Shown one piece after another: positions 41,265 through 47,120 of a stretch of DNA of 64,000 nucleotides. Made by a program: the position numbers and the translations under genes. Every line of letters begins with the position of its first letter. The stretch's first letter is position 1. The notes under the pieces were generated by a model, which saw only the letters and a list, made by a program, of their open reading frames with translations, was not told the DNA's origin and did no database searches. The stretch spans positions 124,001 to 188,000 of the forward strand of contig JAEUJQ010000058.1 in the NCBI GenBank assembly GCA_016793095.1. Reading direction: 5' to 3'. Source of the DNA: Myxococcaceae bacterium. GTDB lineage: Bacteria > Myxococcota > Myxococcia > Myxococcales > Myxococcaceae.

Positions 41265-41680
41265 CCCGAAGCCGTCGTCGCAGGCGTCCTGGGAGCTCAC
41301 TGGCTCGCGGGCTTCGGCAGAACGGAGAGCCGTTGTCTCAGGCGCCCTGGGCGCTCACACGCTCGCCGGGAAGAACGGAGCCATCGTCGCCGGCGTCTCC
41401 TGCCCTCACAGGTGCGCGGGGTTCGGTCGAACGAACCCATCGTCGCAGGCGTCTCCGGCCCTCACAGGTGCGCGGGCTTCGGTCGAACGAACCCATCGTC
41501 GCAGGCGTCTCAAGCCCTCACAGGTGCGCGGGCTTCGGTCGAACGAACCCATCGTCGCAGGCGTCTCCGTCGCTGACTCCGGAAGCTTCGGCGAACCGAG
41601 CCTGCGTGCGCTCACTCACAGGCGCCCGAGCTTCGGCACGTGTAGCCATCGTCGCAGCCGGTCACCGGGCACCCCTCGCG
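41265..41680. repeat. Array of 56-58 bp tandem repeats
   Basis: Three near-identical 56-base units begin at 41403, 41459 and 41515 (1-3 differences). Two weaker 58-base copies begin at 41287 and 41345, and diverged copies continue to about 41680. There is no spacer between units, so this is not a CRISPR array. On the minus strand each unit holds TGCGACGATGG, then a variable core, then CACCTGTGAGGG. This is close to the last 45 bases of the gene at 41612-42238 (encoding CDDGYTC...GAC-E-stop), so the array looks like decayed copies of that gene's end. Each strong unit can form a stem, GGGTTCG with CGAAGCCC (one bulge, loop of six). It fills the 363-base gap between 41248 and 41612. Confidence 0.75.
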
Positions 41681-42238
41681 CCCCGGCGACCCATCGGGCG
41701 GTGGCAGCGCGAAGCGCACCTCGCGCCGCTCACGCTCGACGCACACCTCCCGCTCGACGTCCCCGAGCCCACGCAGACTGACGCGCACCGGCAGGCAGCC
41801 GCTCGGCAAGGCCAGCTGCACCTCACCGCGCTCCACTCGCTGTGACAGGGGCACGCCGGCCACCTCGAACACCGCGCCCTCCCTGCGCTGACGTGACGGG
41901 ACGGACACCTCGAACTCCACCGGTACGCCGGCCGCGGCCCCCACGCTGCCGAGCTCGGCCACCATCGCGCCACCCACCGACACCCGCTGCCGCTCCGCGC
42001 GCAGCGGCGAGGCGAGCACCACCAGCGTCACCTCGCCCTGGGGCACCGAAGTCAGCTCGAACCGACCATCGGCGCCGGGCCGGCTGTGGCGCGTTGGCGC
42101 TTCTTCGACGAACACGAGGGAGTCGGCCGTCGGCTCCTTCACCACGCCACGGATGACGCCGAACCGCAGCGGCGTGTTGTCGAGCCCGCCGCAGGCCGCC
42201 ACGTGGAGCGCGAGGACGGTGAGGGAGAGCGCGCGCAT
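41612..42238 (-). CDS. Small lipoprotein with regulatory-like beta domain and Cys tail
   Basis: 208 residues from ATG 42238 (the frame is open to 42505 but overlaps the caspase gene). Residues 1-16 are a signal with lipobox HVAACGG. The next 70 residues look like a carboxypeptidase-regulatory/PEGA-type beta sandwich (IRGVVKEPTADSLVFVEEAP, FELTSVPQGEVTLVVLASPL). The end is Cys-rich: EGCPVTGCDDGYTCRSSGACE, with five cysteines in 21 residues. Its start shares a base with the caspase gene's stop (TGATG), so it is the fourth member of the sigma-caspase operon. Repeats derived from its 3' end follow it. Confidence 0.7.
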   Translation of the reverse strand: MRALSLTVLALHVAACGGLDNTPLRFGVIRGVVKEPTADSLVFVEEAPTRHSRPGADGRFELTSVPQGEVTLVVLASPLRAERQRVSVGGAMVAELGSVGAAAGVPVEFEVSVPSRQRREGAVFEVAGVPLSQRVERGEVQLALPSGCLPVRVSLRGLGDVEREVCVERERREVRFALPPPDGSPGREGCPVTGCDDGYTCRSSGACE

Positions 42239-43860
42239 CAGAAGCGGTACCCCATGGCCGCCCAGCCGCTCAAGAAGCCCATCGCCCGCGGCGCGCCGTC
42301 GACGGTCAGCAGGGACAGCATCGGCTCGAGGTTCAACGAGAGCTCCCAGTGTCGGCTCAGGTGCACAGCGCCGCCCAGCCACGCCCCGGGCATCATCGAG
42401 AACGCCGCCTGCCGTCCCGAGTAGCCCTCCAGAGAGAAGGACCGCTGCACCCACAGACCGGCCACACGCGCGCCCGCCCACGCCGACCCCGCGCGCCAAC
42501 GCCACTGCCAGCCCACCGAGACTCCGCCCTGTGCCGCCACCCAGGTGAAGGGAATCGGCGCCCCTCCCAGAGACAGGGTGGCGCCGCCTCCGAAGCCGCT
42601 GCCGTCGAGCTGGGCGGCAAGCCCGGTGCCGAACAGGCGCTCGAACCGCAGCGACGCCCCCACCGTCGGCCCGCCCGGGAGCACCTCGGCGCGGCTCTTC
42701 TCGTCGATGAAGACGAAGCCGCCGGCGAGCACGGAGACGGCCGTGTCGGGCTCCTGGCGCGCGACCAGCTCGTCGAGATCGAGGCGCTGCCCGACCTCGA
42801 GCGACAGCTCCTCGCGGACCAGCAGATCAGCGCCCTTCGTCAGCTCCACCAGGTGACGTCCCGGCGTCACGGCGGCCCCTCCGGGCAGCGAGGCGCGCTC
42901 CTCGCCGTCGATCTTCAGCGCGAAGCCATCGAGGCGCTGCGCGTACGAGAAGAGCTCAGGCCGGCCTTCGCGGCGCAGCGCGCCAGCCAGGACGATGGGG
43001 TCGGCGCCCACCTCGAGCACCTCGGCCGAGGGCCGCTGCCGCCCGTTCGAGAAGGCCCACGTCTTGCGCCGGGCATGGTCGTGAGCCTCGGTGGCCGTCA
43101 CGGCGCCGTCGCCGTTGCGGTCGCCCAGACCCGACAGCGCCTCGACGAGGAAGTGCGTGTAGACGTCGTTCTGCAGGCCCTCGTCCTCACGCGCCGGCTC
43201 GCCGAAGTCTGCGGCCGAGAGGGTGATGGCCGCGCGAGACGCCTCTTCGAGTGGACGCACCGGGCCCTTGAGCGAGGCGAGCTCCTTCGACACCTCGTCC
43301 GACAGCAGCGACTTCCCGCCGCCGGAGTGACAGGTGGCGAGCACCAGCACGCGCCGCTTCGAGGGCAGCGCCGCGAACGCCCGCTGCAGCTCGCTCACCG
43401 CGAGGGCCGTCTGCGAGGGGGCGGTGAAGTCGGCGTCGGCGGTGACGAGGTAGCGCTCGAGCTCGCCGCGGCCGTCGCGAGCCAGTGTGCCGTGGGCCGA
43501 GACGTACAGCACGACGATGTCGTCTGCGCGGGTCGCCTCGGCGCCCAGCGCGCGCACGGCCTCGAGCAGCGCCGACCTCGTCGTCTGGGCAGGTTGGGTC
43601 AGCGTCGTGACGCGGTCGTAGCGCCCGCCCTGCGGGTCCCGCAGCACGCGCGCGAGATCCTCGACGTCCTTGTTGGCGAAGCGCAGCGCCCGCCAGCGGT
43701 CGTCCTTCGCCTCGGCGACGGCCACGAGCAGGGCGAACCGCCGGCCCGCGAAGGCCCCGTCGGCCTGCCCCTGCCGCAGCTGCACCACCACGGCGCCCTT
43801 CTCGAGCGGCGCGTGCGCGCAGGCGAGCGCGAGGCAGGCGATGAGAATGAAGCGGCTCAC
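42238..43860 (-). CDS. Exported caspase-type peptidase (C14) with EF-hand-like loop
   Basis: 540 residues. A signal (SRFILIACLALACAHA, possible lipobox) leads to a caspase-like domain at about 40-270. The catalytic dyad is His123 in VSAHGT and Cys177 in LATCHSGG. GDRNGDGAVTATEAHDHAR at 246-264 has a full EF-hand-type loop (D247, N249, D251, E258), a feature common in bacterial C14 proteins and possibly calcium-binding. Residues about 290-340 resemble a PEGA-type unit (FALKIDGEERASLPGGAAV, TPGRHLVELTKG). The last 150 residues are barrel-like and end GYRF. It overlaps the anti-sigma gene by ATGA and the lipoprotein gene by TGATG. It probably acts in the periplasm or outer membrane. Confidence 0.85.
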   Translation of the reverse strand: MSRFILIACLALACAHAPLEKGAVVVQLRQGQADGAFAGRRFALLVAVAEAKDDRWRALRFANKDVEDLARVLRDPQGGRYDRVTTLTQPAQTTRSALLEAVRALGAEATRADDIVVLYVSAHGTLARDGRGELERYLVTADADFTAPSQTALAVSELQRAFAALPSKRRVLVLATCHSGGGKSLLSDEVSKELASLKGPVRPLEEASRAAITLSAADFGEPAREDEGLQNDVYTHFLVEALSGLGDRNGDGAVTATEAHDHARRKTWAFSNGRQRPSAEVLEVGADPIVLAGALRREGRPELFSYAQRLDGFALKIDGEERASLPGGAAVTPGRHLVELTKGADLLVREELSLEVGQRLDLDELVARQEPDTAVSVLAGGFVFIDEKSRAEVLPGGPTVGASLRFERLFGTGLAAQLDGSGFGGGATLSLGGAPIPFTWVAAQGGVSVGWQWRWRAGSAWAGARVAGLWVQRSFSLEGYSGRQAAFSMMPGAWLGGAVHLSRHWELSLNLEPMLSLLTVDGAPRAMGFLSGWAAMGYRF

Positions 43861-44582
43861 GGCTCGACGACGACCTCGACGCGCCCCACGGCCAGGGGCG
43901 AGGAGTCAGAGGCTATCGCCTTCAGCGCCTCGGCGACATCGAAGGGGCTCGCGTGGGCCACCACCCACACCGACACCGCGCCCTGCTCGTCCTCGAGGTT
44001 GACGCCGAAGAGGCCCGACTCCTGCTCGAGCTGGTTGGCGCCGGCGCGCACGCGCACCTGGGCGAGCTCCTCGGGCGCCTCGCGGCGCCGTTGCAGGAAG
44101 ACGCGCGCGGGCCCGTCGACGGGCGACGTGACACGGAAGGCCAGCGTCGAGCCGCGGGGCACCCGCCCGTTCGGCGGCACCTGCTCGAAGTCGCCCGACG
44201 GGAGCTGGCGCGCGGCGATGACGCTCATCAGCACACGACCGCTGCCCTTGACGCCGTCGTCGGTGGGCACCCGCAGCATGCTGCGCACCGAGAGACTCGC
44301 GCCCACCAGCACGAGGAGGCCGGCGGCCAGCGCGATGAGGGCAGCGAGGCTCCGGCGTTCTCTGCCGAGGCGTGCGCGCAGCCGCCGCCAGCCCATCTCA
44401 TCGAGCGGCGCCTCCCGCGGGGACAAGGCGAGCAGCAGTCGGTCGACCTCACCGTCGAGCTCAGGGCGTGCGGCGATCCAGCCGTCGCACACCTCGCACC
44501 CCTCCTTCAGGTGCTCGAGCATGGGGCCGGACGAGGCCGGGTCCTTCCACAGGCGCTGCCAGGTGGCGTCGTCGAGGTGCAT
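43857..44582 (-). CDS. Membrane anti-sigma factor with zinc-type N-terminus
   Basis: 241 residues. The N-terminal cytoplasmic part has H24, C29 and C32 in EHLKEGCEVCDGW, the H-x4-C-x2-C core of zinc-binding anti-sigma domains. One membrane segment (LAALIALAAGLLVLVGASL) lies near 78-97. The rest is a periplasmic beta domain (GRVPRGSTLAFRVTSPVDG, ARVFLQRRREAPEE). It follows the sigma gene by six bases and overlaps the caspase gene. It would bind and hold the sigma factor at 44589-45152 until a signal releases it (family knowledge plus context). Confidence 0.82.
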   Translation of the reverse strand: MHLDDATWQRLWKDPASSGPMLEHLKEGCEVCDGWIAARPELDGEVDRLLLALSPREAPLDEMGWRRLRARLGRERRSLAALIALAAGLLVLVGASLSVRSMLRVPTDDGVKGSGRVLMSVIAARQLPSGDFEQVPPNGRVPRGSTLAFRVTSPVDGPARVFLQRRREAPEELAQVRVRAGANQLEQESGLFGVNLEDEQGAVSVWVVAHASPFDVAEALKAIASDSSPLAVGRVEVVVEP

Positions 44583-44588
44583 GGCGGT

Positions 44589-45152
44589 TCAGACCTTCGC
44601 GGCGAGGACCCGCAGGGCGAGCTCGCGCTTCACGCGGGCACGGAAGCGCTCGAGGCGCATGGTGATGGCGCTCTTCCCGACGCCCAGCTTCTCGGCGATC
44701 TCCCGGGCTGACAGCTGCCCCTCGACGTAGAAGAGGTGCACCGTCTCCTTCTCGGGGCCGTCGGGCAGGCGGGCGATGAGGTCGCGCACGATGGCGAGGT
44801 CGACCTCGAGCGCGAGGGAGTCTGGGAAGGGCGTCACCGCGTCGCGCGACTCCTCCTTCAGGTCCGACCTGGTCCGCTCCTCAGCAGCTCGCCGGGCGAG
44901 CGCCGTCTTCGCGCGGTTGCGGGCGATGGTGTACAGCCACGCCTCGAAGGACGCGGGTGACACCAGGGAGCCGAGGGACTTGAAGGCGCGCGCGAAGGTG
45001 TCCTGCACGATGTCCTCCCGCTCGTCGAAGTCCAGGGACGCGAACGCCTCGAGCAGACGCACCACCCCCGGCCGATAGCGCTGGTAGAGCGCCCGGAACG
45101 CCGACTCCTCGCCCCGCCGGGCGGCCTCGATCTGCCCACCAGGGTCTTTCAT
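44589..45152 (-). CDS. ECF-type sigma-70 family RNA polymerase sigma factor
   Basis: 187 residues from ATG 45152; the frame is open to 45272 but upstream sequence lacks a domain. Region 2 is at about 15-85 (FDEREDIVQDTFARAFKSL, FEAWLYTIARNRAKTALARR). Region 4 is at about 120-180 (DGPEKETVHLFYVEGQLSAREIAEKLGV, then SAITMRLERFRARVKREL) with the helix-turn-helix. Region 3 is absent, as in ECF factors. It is the first gene of the sigma, anti-sigma, caspase, lipoprotein unit. It probably directs transcription of this unit and perhaps of the divergent Cys-rich gene (inference). Confidence 0.9.
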   Translation of the reverse strand: MKDPGGQIEAARRGEESAFRALYQRYRPGVVRLLEAFASLDFDEREDIVQDTFARAFKSLGSLVSPASFEAWLYTIARNRAKTALARRAAEERTRSDLKEESRDAVTPFPDSLALEVDLAIVRDLIARLPDGPEKETVHLFYVEGQLSAREIAEKLGVGKSAITMRLERFRARVKRELALRVLAAKV

Positions 45153-45272
45153 GCCCTCGGTCACCGGAAGACCTGCCTCGTCCGCTTGTGGCCACAGCAG
45201 GCCCGGCTCGTGGCCAGCCGGCTCGACCCGGAGTCGAAGGCTCTGGCCGACTTGTCGCGCGGGAGCGCCCAC
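45153..45272. promoter_or_regulatory. Divergent intergenic region with a 10-bp palindrome
   Basis: These 120 bases separate the sigma gene (leftward) and the Cys-rich lipoprotein gene (rightward), so both promoters should lie here. TGTGGCCACA at 45187-45196 is a perfect 10-base palindrome, with a related TGGCCA about 20 bases on. A palindrome this short occurs by chance fairly often in GC-rich DNA. No convincing ECF -35/-10 pair was found by eye. Confidence 0.25.
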
Positions 45273-47051
45273 ATGACCCGACTCCTTCCTCTGTGCCTCG
45301 TCATCTTCTGGAGTGGCTGCACTTGCAACAACGTCATCGTCGACCCCGGTGACGGCGGCTCAGCGGGCGGAACGACGTCACAGGGCGGCGGAACGTCGCA
45401 GGGCGGCGGGACCGGCACGGGCGGCGGGGCTGGAGCGAGCGGCGGCGCGGGTGGAGGATCAGCCGTCGCGTGCGGCGCCCTGGGTGAGCCCTGCTGTGCC
45501 GGCAACACCTGCACCGCGACGCAGGCGACGTGCCGCAACAACGTCTGCGCGTCGTGCGGCGGTGCAGGGCAGCCCTGTTGCCCCGGGCGGGCGTGCGGGG
45601 CGAACCTCGTCTGCAACGTGCAGCAGGGCTCGGTGTGCGCGCCCTGCGGCGGACCGGGCGAGGCGTGCTGCGCCGGCAACGCGTGCGCGGGAGGCGGCTG
45701 CTGCGTCGCGAACCTCTGCGTCGCCGGCAACGCGACGTGCCCCGCGGTGGGCGGCACGTGCACCAACGGCAGCTGCGGGCAGTGCGGCGGCGCGGGTCAG
45801 ACCTGCTGCCCGAACAACGTGTGCACCGCCCCCAACGTGGTGTGCACGGCGGGCGGGACGAACTGCGCTGCGTGCGGCGGCGCCGGGCAGCCGTGCTGCG
45901 CGCAGCAGTCGTGCACCGCCTCGGGCACCGTGTGCAGCCAGGGCTCGTGCACGCCGTGTGGCGGGCTGGGGCAGGCCTGCTGCGCGGGAGACGCGTGTGG
46001 CGCGACCGCGGTGTGCCGGGGTGGGCAGTGCGCGGCGTGCGGCGGGCCGGGGCAGCCGTGCTGTCCGGGCGCGGCCTGCGCGTCGGGGTGCTGTGACGTC
46101 GGCGGCTCCAACCTGTGCATCGCGGCGGGCCAGCAGTGCGCGCGGGGAGATCTCTGCTCGGGCACCCAGTGCGCCGGCTGTGGCGGCCTCGGGCAGCCGT
46201 GCTGCGGTGGCGCCACCTGCAACCGCATGTCGCTGGCGTGCACCATGGGCAGCTGCGCCCCGTGTGGTGGGCCGCTCCAGCCCGCGTGCCAGGGCACCAC
46301 CTGCCTCGGAGGGGCCTGCCTCGAAGCCGGCGCCTGTGTGCCGGCGGGCCAGGTTGGCGCGAACGGCCAGCTGTGTCTGTCGGGCGCCTTCGTGCCGTGC
46401 GGCGGGGCGGGCCAGCCCTGCTGCGCCAACTCGACCTGCGCCGGCGGCGCCTGCTGTGCGGGCACGACCTGCGTCGCGTCGGCGGCGGCCTGCGGCCCGC
46501 AGCTGGGCACCTGCACCGGCGGCGCGTGCAGCTCGTGCGGCGGCGCGGGCCAGCAGTGCTGCCAGGGCGGCGGGAACCAGGCCGACTTCTGCACCGCGTC
46601 GGGGCTCGCGTGCAGTGACAACGACGTGTGCGCCACCTGCGGCGGGCCGGGCCAGCCGTGCTGTCCGGGAAACCTCTGCGCGGGCGGCGGCTGCTGCGAC
46701 AACAACACGCGCAGCTGCGTGGCGATGGGTGGCACCTGCAGCGCAGCCACCGGCATGTGCGCGAACGGGGGCTGTCAGGGCGGCGGCTGCGGTCGCCTCG
46801 GCCAGCCTGCCTGCAACGGCGACGTCGCGTGCACCGCGCCCTTCACCGTCGAGGCCGGCGGCCAGTGCGTGGCGTGCGGCGGCGTGGGGCAGCGGTGCTG
46901 CGAGGCGCGCGGGGGCAACCAGTGCGGGGCGGGCGCGGCCTGCGGCAACAACAACCAGTGCGACGCCTGTGGCGCCATGGGCCAGCTCTGCTGCCTCGGC
47001 CGCTTCTGCACTGCGGGCGCCTGCACCACCGGCACCGGCCGCTGCCAGTGA
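45273..47051 (+). CDS. Cys-rich lipoprotein with CGGxGQPCC repeats
   Basis: 592 residues from ATG 45273. The signal has lipobox IFWSGC. A Gly/Thr-rich linker (about residues 28-65, GGGTSQGGG) is followed by a long array of Cys modules to the end. The core is CGGxGQPCC then xGxxC, repeated more than a dozen times with 35-60 residue spacing; some modules add GGGCC or CDNNT-like loops. No enzyme or known binding domain is seen. The lipobox and Gly-linker design match 8956-11532 and the edge gene at 1-313, but the Cys pattern is different. It is divergent from the sigma gene and about 70 bases upstream of a second sigma gene, so it may be a regulated surface product. Confidence 0.8.
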   Translation: MTRLLPLCLVIFWSGCTCNNVIVDPGDGGSAGGTTSQGGGTSQGGGTGTGGGAGASGGAGGGSAVACGALGEPCCAGNTCTATQATCRNNVCASCGGAGQPCCPGRACGANLVCNVQQGSVCAPCGGPGEACCAGNACAGGGCCVANLCVAGNATCPAVGGTCTNGSCGQCGGAGQTCCPNNVCTAPNVVCTAGGTNCAACGGAGQPCCAQQSCTASGTVCSQGSCTPCGGLGQACCAGDACGATAVCRGGQCAACGGPGQPCCPGAACASGCCDVGGSNLCIAAGQQCARGDLCSGTQCAGCGGLGQPCCGGATCNRMSLACTMGSCAPCGGPLQPACQGTTCLGGACLEAGACVPAGQVGANGQLCLSGAFVPCGGAGQPCCANSTCAGGACCAGTTCVASAAACGPQLGTCTGGACSSCGGAGQQCCQGGGNQADFCTASGLACSDNDVCATCGGPGQPCCPGNLCAGGGCCDNNTRSCVAMGGTCSAATGMCANGGCQGGGCGRLGQPACNGDVACTAPFTVEAGGQCVACGGVGQRCCEARGGNQCGAGAACGNNNQCDACGAMGQLCCLGRFCTAGACTTGTGRCQ

Positions 47052-47070: not shown

Positions 47071-47120
47071 TTCCGCGCCTCGCCAACGTTCTGCGTCCGG
47101 CCCGGATAGGAAGGGCCGTG

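Follow-up and report, generated by a model that had tools for sequence, protein, structure and literature searches.

An operon from Myxococcaceae in which an envelope caspase may release a sigma factor by cutting its anti-sigma factor

Introduction

Membrane anti-sigma factors of the RseA-DegS-RseP and RsiW types have an outer domain that is cut near the membrane by a site-1 protease, after which a site-2 protease acts. I consider here an operon of four genes in a Myxococcaceae bacterium, lying on the minus strand of a 64,000-nucleotide stretch of DNA (GenBank assembly GCA_016793095.1, contig JAEUJQ010000058.1, positions 124,001 to 188,000), which I will call the window and to which all coordinates refer. 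The genes encode, in order, an extracytoplasmic function (ECF) sigma factor, a membrane anti-sigma factor, a caspase and a small lipoprotein. A dipeptide, Lys-Gly, common to the anti-sigma factors and caspases of such operons suggests that the caspase is the putative site-1 protease of its anti-sigma factor. As compared to RseA and RsiW, the site-1 enzyme would then be a caspase anchored in the outer membrane and encoded in the same operon.

Operons joining sigma factors to metacaspases were reported in 2012 from Myxococcus, Anaeromyxobacter, Haliangium, Sorangium, Ralstonia and Fibrobacter (Asplund-Samuelsson 2012, PMC3501461); four of the five metacaspases of M. xanthus lie in operons with sigma-70 factors. 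This is the same association as in the window. The term "anti-sigma" does not occur in the searched text of that paper, whose passage on these operons mentions neither Lys-Gly sites nor a lipid anchor, a barrel or a switch. A caspase-like protease acting on a sigma inhibitor is known as well: in the Csx29-Csx30-CASP-sigma system of type III-E CRISPR, such a protease cleaves the protein that inhibits an ECF sigma factor, which lifts the inhibition (PMC10028731). The same kind of action is proposed here, but Csx29 is an RNA-activated CHAT protease working with Cas7-11, whereas the window encodes a periplasmic C14 enzyme and a membrane anti-sigma factor. Neighborhoods of EACC2 often include an ECF sigma factor (PMC8195603); the EACC1 and EACC2 systems described there have effector-associated constant domains, and the passages on them mention no membrane anti-sigma factor. 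Finally, the plant metacaspase AtMC4 matures by a calcium-dependent cut after Lys225 in its linker (PMC7206013). The open-licence papers searched included no work on caspases and anti-sigma factors in myxobacteria, and in them I came across no account of a tether at the outer membrane, of a membrane anti-sigma factor as partner or of the common Lys-Gly sites. Judged against those papers, what appears to be new is the logic of the sites and the tether.

The Operon and Its Conservation

The four genes, all on the minus strand, are the following:

44589..45152, minus strand: ECF sigma factor, 187 amino acids (profile matches)
43857..44582, minus strand: membrane anti-sigma factor, 241 amino acids, with a DUF4384-like outer domain (alignment, structure model)
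42238..43860, minus strand: caspase (C14) fused to a PEGA-like domain and an outer-membrane barrel, 540 amino acids, GTG start (profile, alignment, model, Foldseek)
41612..42238, minus strand: small lipoprotein with a carboxypeptidase-regulatory-like domain (lipobox A-A-C, weak match to PF13620)

A preliminary description, made from the letters of the window, had seen four tightly packed genes with these identities, and both points are borne out, the first by spacings of +6, −4 and −1 bases and the second by profiles, motifs and a structure model. The sigma factor matches Sigma70_r2 (3e-14) and TIGR02937 (6e-23) above their cut-offs and region 4 below its own, and on these matches it can be classed as an ECF sigma factor, a class that has regions 2 and 4 and lacks region 3. 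The anti-sigma factor and the lipoprotein of the window have no curated family match above cut-off.

The survey of neighborhoods that the preliminary description called for found the order widely kept. Among relatives drawn by family searches ranked by score, a non-random sample in which related genomes are not independent, the sigma factor, anti-sigma factor and caspase occur together in 50 of 58 named loci and all four genes, the lipoprotein included, in 43, while at least five of the eight loci without the full trio begin at or near the end of a contig. The neighborhoods of 40 relative loci and 59 named loci show the same: the trio is kept, usually the lipoprotein as well, and the overlaps of four bases and one base recur frequently. 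The order is maintained in Myxococcaceae and beyond, M. xanthus AM003 has two copies of the operon (L105 and L111), and the arrangement is far beyond chance. Two myxobacterial operons (L087 and L108) come from a record titled 'Comamonas sp. KCTC 72670', whose label or assembly is probably wrong.

Upstream of the sigma gene lies a promoter-like element:

45169..45196, minus strand: TGTGGCC-N17-GTCT, 44 bases before the start of the sigma gene (recurrence in orthologous upstream regions)

The pattern YGTGGCC-N17-GTC precedes the sigma gene by some 28 to 45 bases in 28 of 53 orthologous regions, as against at most one in shuffled sequences. The element fits autoregulation by the sigma factor. There are only four sites for TGTGGCC-N17-GTCT in the genome, and the three outside the operon are not clearly promoters; a regulon reaching beyond the operon was for this reason set aside.

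Lys-Gly Sites in Anti-Sigma Factors and Caspases

In the proteins of the operon the dipeptide is of interest at three positions, two of them proposed sites of cleavage and the third a site near a lipid anchor:

44244..44249, minus strand: Lys112-Gly113 of the anti-sigma factor, where cleavage is proposed, in the linker beside the membrane (conservation, disordered linker)
43264..43269, minus strand: Lys198-Gly199 of the caspase, the proposed self-cleavage site in the activation loop (Lys198 invariant; loop predicted with a local confidence score, pLDDT, below 50)
43795..43800, minus strand: Lys21-Gly22 of the caspase, just past its lipid anchor (Lys-Gly in 54 of 58 orthologs)

An alignment of 35 anti-sigma factors has just three invariant positions, Leu3, Lys112 and Gly181, with Gly113 conserved in at least 90%. 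Anti-sigma factors of the window type have Lys-Gly in 53 of 54 cases, the remaining one having Lys-Ala. The same dipeptide was found when caspases of the class were sampled by family search, blind to their context: 27 of the 37 recognized caspases have a sigma gene directly upstream, and all 27 intervening anti-sigma factors have Lys-Gly after the membrane helix. Further samples from other groups give the same picture, and most caspases in the genome of the window sit behind a pair of sigma and anti-sigma genes. I will call caspases with Asp before the catalytic Cys D-type; counts for them are deduplicated. Their partner anti-sigma factors, where they are linked to a sigma gene, have Lys-Gly in 55 of 56 cases, the exception (L311) having Arg-Gly. 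Even in 12 divergent caspase-linked anti-sigma factors, which are homologous to those of the window type, Lys-Gly is among the five invariant residues.

As controls I used 33 membrane proteins encoded directly after other sigma genes of the genome, two of which have Lys-Gly near the first helix. One reads from its sequence as a CpaB-like pilus protein. The second, L271, holds an anti-sigma factor of the DUF4384 type, and the gene that follows it encodes a caspase missed by the Pfam search:

L271:1540-3132: caspase with T-S-H-G, D-A-C-E-A-G and an EF-hand-type loop, encoded immediately behind a sigma/anti-sigma pair

With both exceptions explained, the true controls with Lys-Gly number 0 of 31, to be compared with 55 of 56 partners of D-type caspases (Fisher's test, approximately 1e-22).

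The caspases of these modules themselves have Lys-Gly in the loop past the catalytic Cys, nearly always nine residues after it. In the lineage of the window the loop is longer: the invariant Lys198 lies 21 residues after the Cys, with a small residue behind it, and the stretch is predicted to be disordered. The wider motif R-x-K-G is found in 37 of 44 caspase loops and in 30 of 45 anti-sigma factors, while the Lys is present in all 44 and all 45; the loop site reads TRLKGG in L222, and in L310 R-L-K-G lies within a longer loop. Among D-type caspases, the loop has Lys-Gly in 55 of 56 that are linked to a sigma gene, as opposed to 13 of 45 without a detected one.

The third site accompanies an anchor. 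Caspases anchored by a lipid or in the membrane have Lys-Gly just past the anchor in several families (the window family, L266, L254, L304, L306, L134 and L217), and the four members of the window family without it (L123, L124, L127 and L128) also lack a lipobox. That an N-terminal Lys-Gly might be universal in caspases was considered and rejected, as those with only a signal peptide do not have it. In L134, from the genome of the window, and in L217, a membrane-anchored caspase with G-A-K-G past its helix is encoded beside a trypsin-like protease; the protease, in L134 a lipoprotein whose catalytic domain is preceded by G-A-K-G, is possibly a zymogen substrate.

A cut site of the enzyme is the best explanation for one dipeptide at three flexible places that are unrelated to each other. 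The common Lys-Gly sites lend comparative support to the idea of the preliminary description, a caspase cutting the outer part of the anti-sigma factor, but the site it had named does not survive:

44073..44093, minus strand: QRRREAP tract, residues 164-170 of the anti-sigma factor (alignment, structure model)

The tract is present in the window, is not conserved in relatives and falls inside a folded domain of the model, and it was rejected as a cut site.

Alternative Explanations of the Dipeptide

Lys-Gly might serve instead as a docking or pseudosubstrate motif, the linker occupying the pocket of the caspase so that each protein inhibits the other until a signal separates them, with no cut in the anti-sigma factor. 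There is a precedent in AtMC4, where Lys225 plugs the active site before cleavage (PMC7206013), and the strictness of Lys-Gly would fit as well. I consider this unlikely, since the dipeptide recurs in flexible, non-homologous places (activation loop and anchor spacer) and is gone from members without an anchor, of which a cut site is the simplest account.

On a slightly less likely reading, the sigma factor has the caspase as its output, in envelope remodelling, defence or cell death, and the anti-sigma factor is cut by a DegS-type or other site-1 protease. The caspase gene does lie within an operon whose promoter is of the autoregulatory type, as target genes often do, and metacaspases have been discussed as cell-death enzymes in Myxococcus (PMC3501461). 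This explanation nonetheless leaves unaccounted for why Lys-Gly is limited to anti-sigma factors adjacent to caspases and why the loops of the caspases share it.

Least probable is that Lys-Gly is the structural start of the DUF4384-like domain, plays no part in proteolysis and matches the caspase loop by coincidence, an explanation that can draw on the homology of all caspase-linked anti-sigma factors and on the position of the motif some four to eight residues before the first strand, but that sits poorly with a linker predicted to be disordered and with R-x-K-G common to unrelated contexts.

Architecture of the Anti-Sigma Factor and the Caspase

Features of the anti-sigma factor outside the linker are these:

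44487..44513, minus strand: zinc-type motif His24-x4-Cys29-x2-Cys32 (alignment)
44277..44348, minus strand: transmembrane helix, residues 79-102 (structure model)

The residues of the zinc-type motif, His2 and His24-x4-Cys29-x2-Cys32, are at least 90% conserved in the 35 sequences. Their spacing is one residue longer than the textbook HxxxCxxC of zinc-binding anti-sigma (ZAS) domains, and matches to zf-HC2 occur in relatives only. The anti-sigma factor of L073 (and also of L034) has lost the His-Cys-Cys cluster of zinc ligands and has kept Lys-Gly. Outside the membrane, residues 106-112 of the linker are disordered in the model (pLDDT below 50), and beyond them lies an immunoglobulin (Ig)-like beta domain, for which a fold search returned only Ig-like matches, without confidence. 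The window protein has no match to PF14326 (DUF4384) and is not placed in that family; at E-values up to 0.1, two of the 35 relatives and nine of 12 paralogous anti-sigma factors do match it, and a profile match joins the window protein to caspase-linked anti-sigma factors that hit DUF4384 and zf-HC2. The partners of D-type caspases (alignment A4) have an invariant Pro and a Lys near the C-terminus (P242 and K254 in L131) that are not seen in the window family.

The caspase has the following parts (lipoboxes were assigned by eye and by pattern, and membrane helices by a hydropathy rule):

43819..43830, minus strand: lipobox-like A-L-A-C with Cys14, weaker than the L-A-A-C boxes of most orthologs
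43492..43494, minus strand: catalytic His123, in S-A-H-G (invariant in 37 aligned sequences)
43330..43332, minus strand: catalytic Cys177, in T-C-H-S-G (invariant in 37 aligned sequences)
43087..43122, minus strand: EF-hand-type loop, D247-R-N-G-D-G-A-V-T-A-T-E258 (largely conserved in alignment)
42778..42993, minus strand: PEGA-like beta domain, residues 290-361 (beta-rich in model)
42244..42744, minus strand: eight-stranded outer-membrane barrel, residues 373-539, ending Y-R-F (model, Foldseek)

The protein belongs to Peptidase C14 by domain (PF00656, 2.7e-9, 37.5 bits against a cut-off of 21.4), by its dyad and by its fold, the nearest solved folds in Foldseek being MALT1 (5e-12) and metacaspases. 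It has the fold and the His-Cys dyad in common with AtMC4, Yca1 and 4i1p, but unlike metacaspases and MALT1 it is exported, is fused to a PEGA-like domain and a barrel, and has Ala in place of the S1 Asp before the Cys. Across the alignment the intact dyad noted in the preliminary description holds, and its EF-hand-like loop largely does. Calcium control through that loop is plausible from its sequence. Among NCBIfam models the caspase comes close to EACC1 (4.5e-27, under the cut-off), and a scan against a defence library matched the general caspase model only. With two caspases of such modules as queries, a search for relatives on plasmids gave three weak matches for one and none for the other.

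The whole length of the caspase is conserved in relatives, including the C-terminal third. The latter is predicted to be an outer-membrane beta-barrel, by the signal, eight strands, C-terminal aromatic residue and fold of the model, and its Foldseek matches are Ail, OmpX, OmpA and NspA. The PEGA-like domain has no family match, and its label derives from the beta-rich model. With its lipoprotein-type N-terminus and C-terminal barrel, the protein should be suspended from the outer membrane, its catalytic domain reaching into the periplasm. The caspase had been described as exported, and the prediction agrees, placing it in the periplasm rather than the cytoplasm and adding the lipobox-like motif and the barrel.

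Beyond the operon, a tandem repeat (41373-41568; unit of 56 bases, 3.5 copies) separates the lipoprotein gene from its next neighbor. The divergent neighbor on the plus strand (45273-47051) encodes a Cys-rich repeat lipoprotein with many Cys-Gly-Gly-x-Gly-Gln-x-Cys-Cys units, and a further ECF sigma gene comes after it at 47118.

A Proposed Proteolytic Switch and Its Consequences

The operon is probably, though by no means certainly, a proteolytic switch in which a Lys-specific envelope caspase activates itself, sheds the outer domain of the anti-sigma factor and so releases the sigma factor. The cytoplasmic zinc-type domain of the anti-sigma factor would hold the sigma factor at the inner membrane, with the Ig-like, DUF4384-like domain in the periplasm, while the caspase, tethered to the outer membrane by barrel and lipid, would expose its catalytic domain to the periplasm. 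A cue, possibly calcium acting through the EF-hand-type loop and possibly sensed by the barrel or the lipoprotein, would lead the caspase to cut itself after the Lys of its activation loop. The mature enzyme would next cut the anti-sigma factor on the C-terminal side of Lys112, in the flexible linker close to the outer face of the inner membrane. The remaining stump would presumably be finished by a site-2 protease (M50 proteases of this type are present in the genome), and the sigma factor, once released, would induce its own operon. Comparison or prediction supports the operon, the architecture, the topology, the promoter and the caspase-linked Lys-Gly sites; I infer cleavage at Lys-Gly, the caspase as the enzyme responsible, the trigger and the site-2 step.

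Several points weigh against such a switch. The caspase-linked anti-sigma factors are homologous, and Lys-Gly could persist among them for a purpose other than cleavage, docking for instance. The pocket for a basic P1 residue retains Ser121 and Asp65, but Ala175 replaces the Asp two before the Cys that other module caspases and AtMC4 (Asp137) carry, which, judging from the sequence, makes the P1 specificity of the window lineage less certain. Lys is almost never Arg at the site, a stricter preference than that of most metacaspases. An enzyme tethered at the outer membrane must reach a substrate at the inner membrane, some 10-15 residues from it. The caspase of Anaeromyxobacter L112 has neither a sigma nor an anti-sigma gene nearby, and 13 caspases with the loop motif have no sigma gene detected upstream, although some of these loci are cut by the end of a contig or have short flanks.

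With about even confidence, the proposal can be widened: in Myxococcota and their relatives, envelope caspases may make up a large group of site-1 proteases, in many paralogous sigma/anti-sigma/caspase cassettes per genome, each with a Lys-Gly site for self-activation and the same site in its anti-sigma factor, so that maturation in the periplasm is read out as transcription. The rule in the sequence, Lys-Gly in the linker and past the catalytic Cys, has already exposed one caspase that Pfam missed. The roles and substrates of bacterial caspases are largely unknown, and if the proposal is true it would give the whole class a concrete substrate, a bond and a readable output; it would also mean that caspases drive signalling from envelope to genes in bacteria best known for multicellular development.

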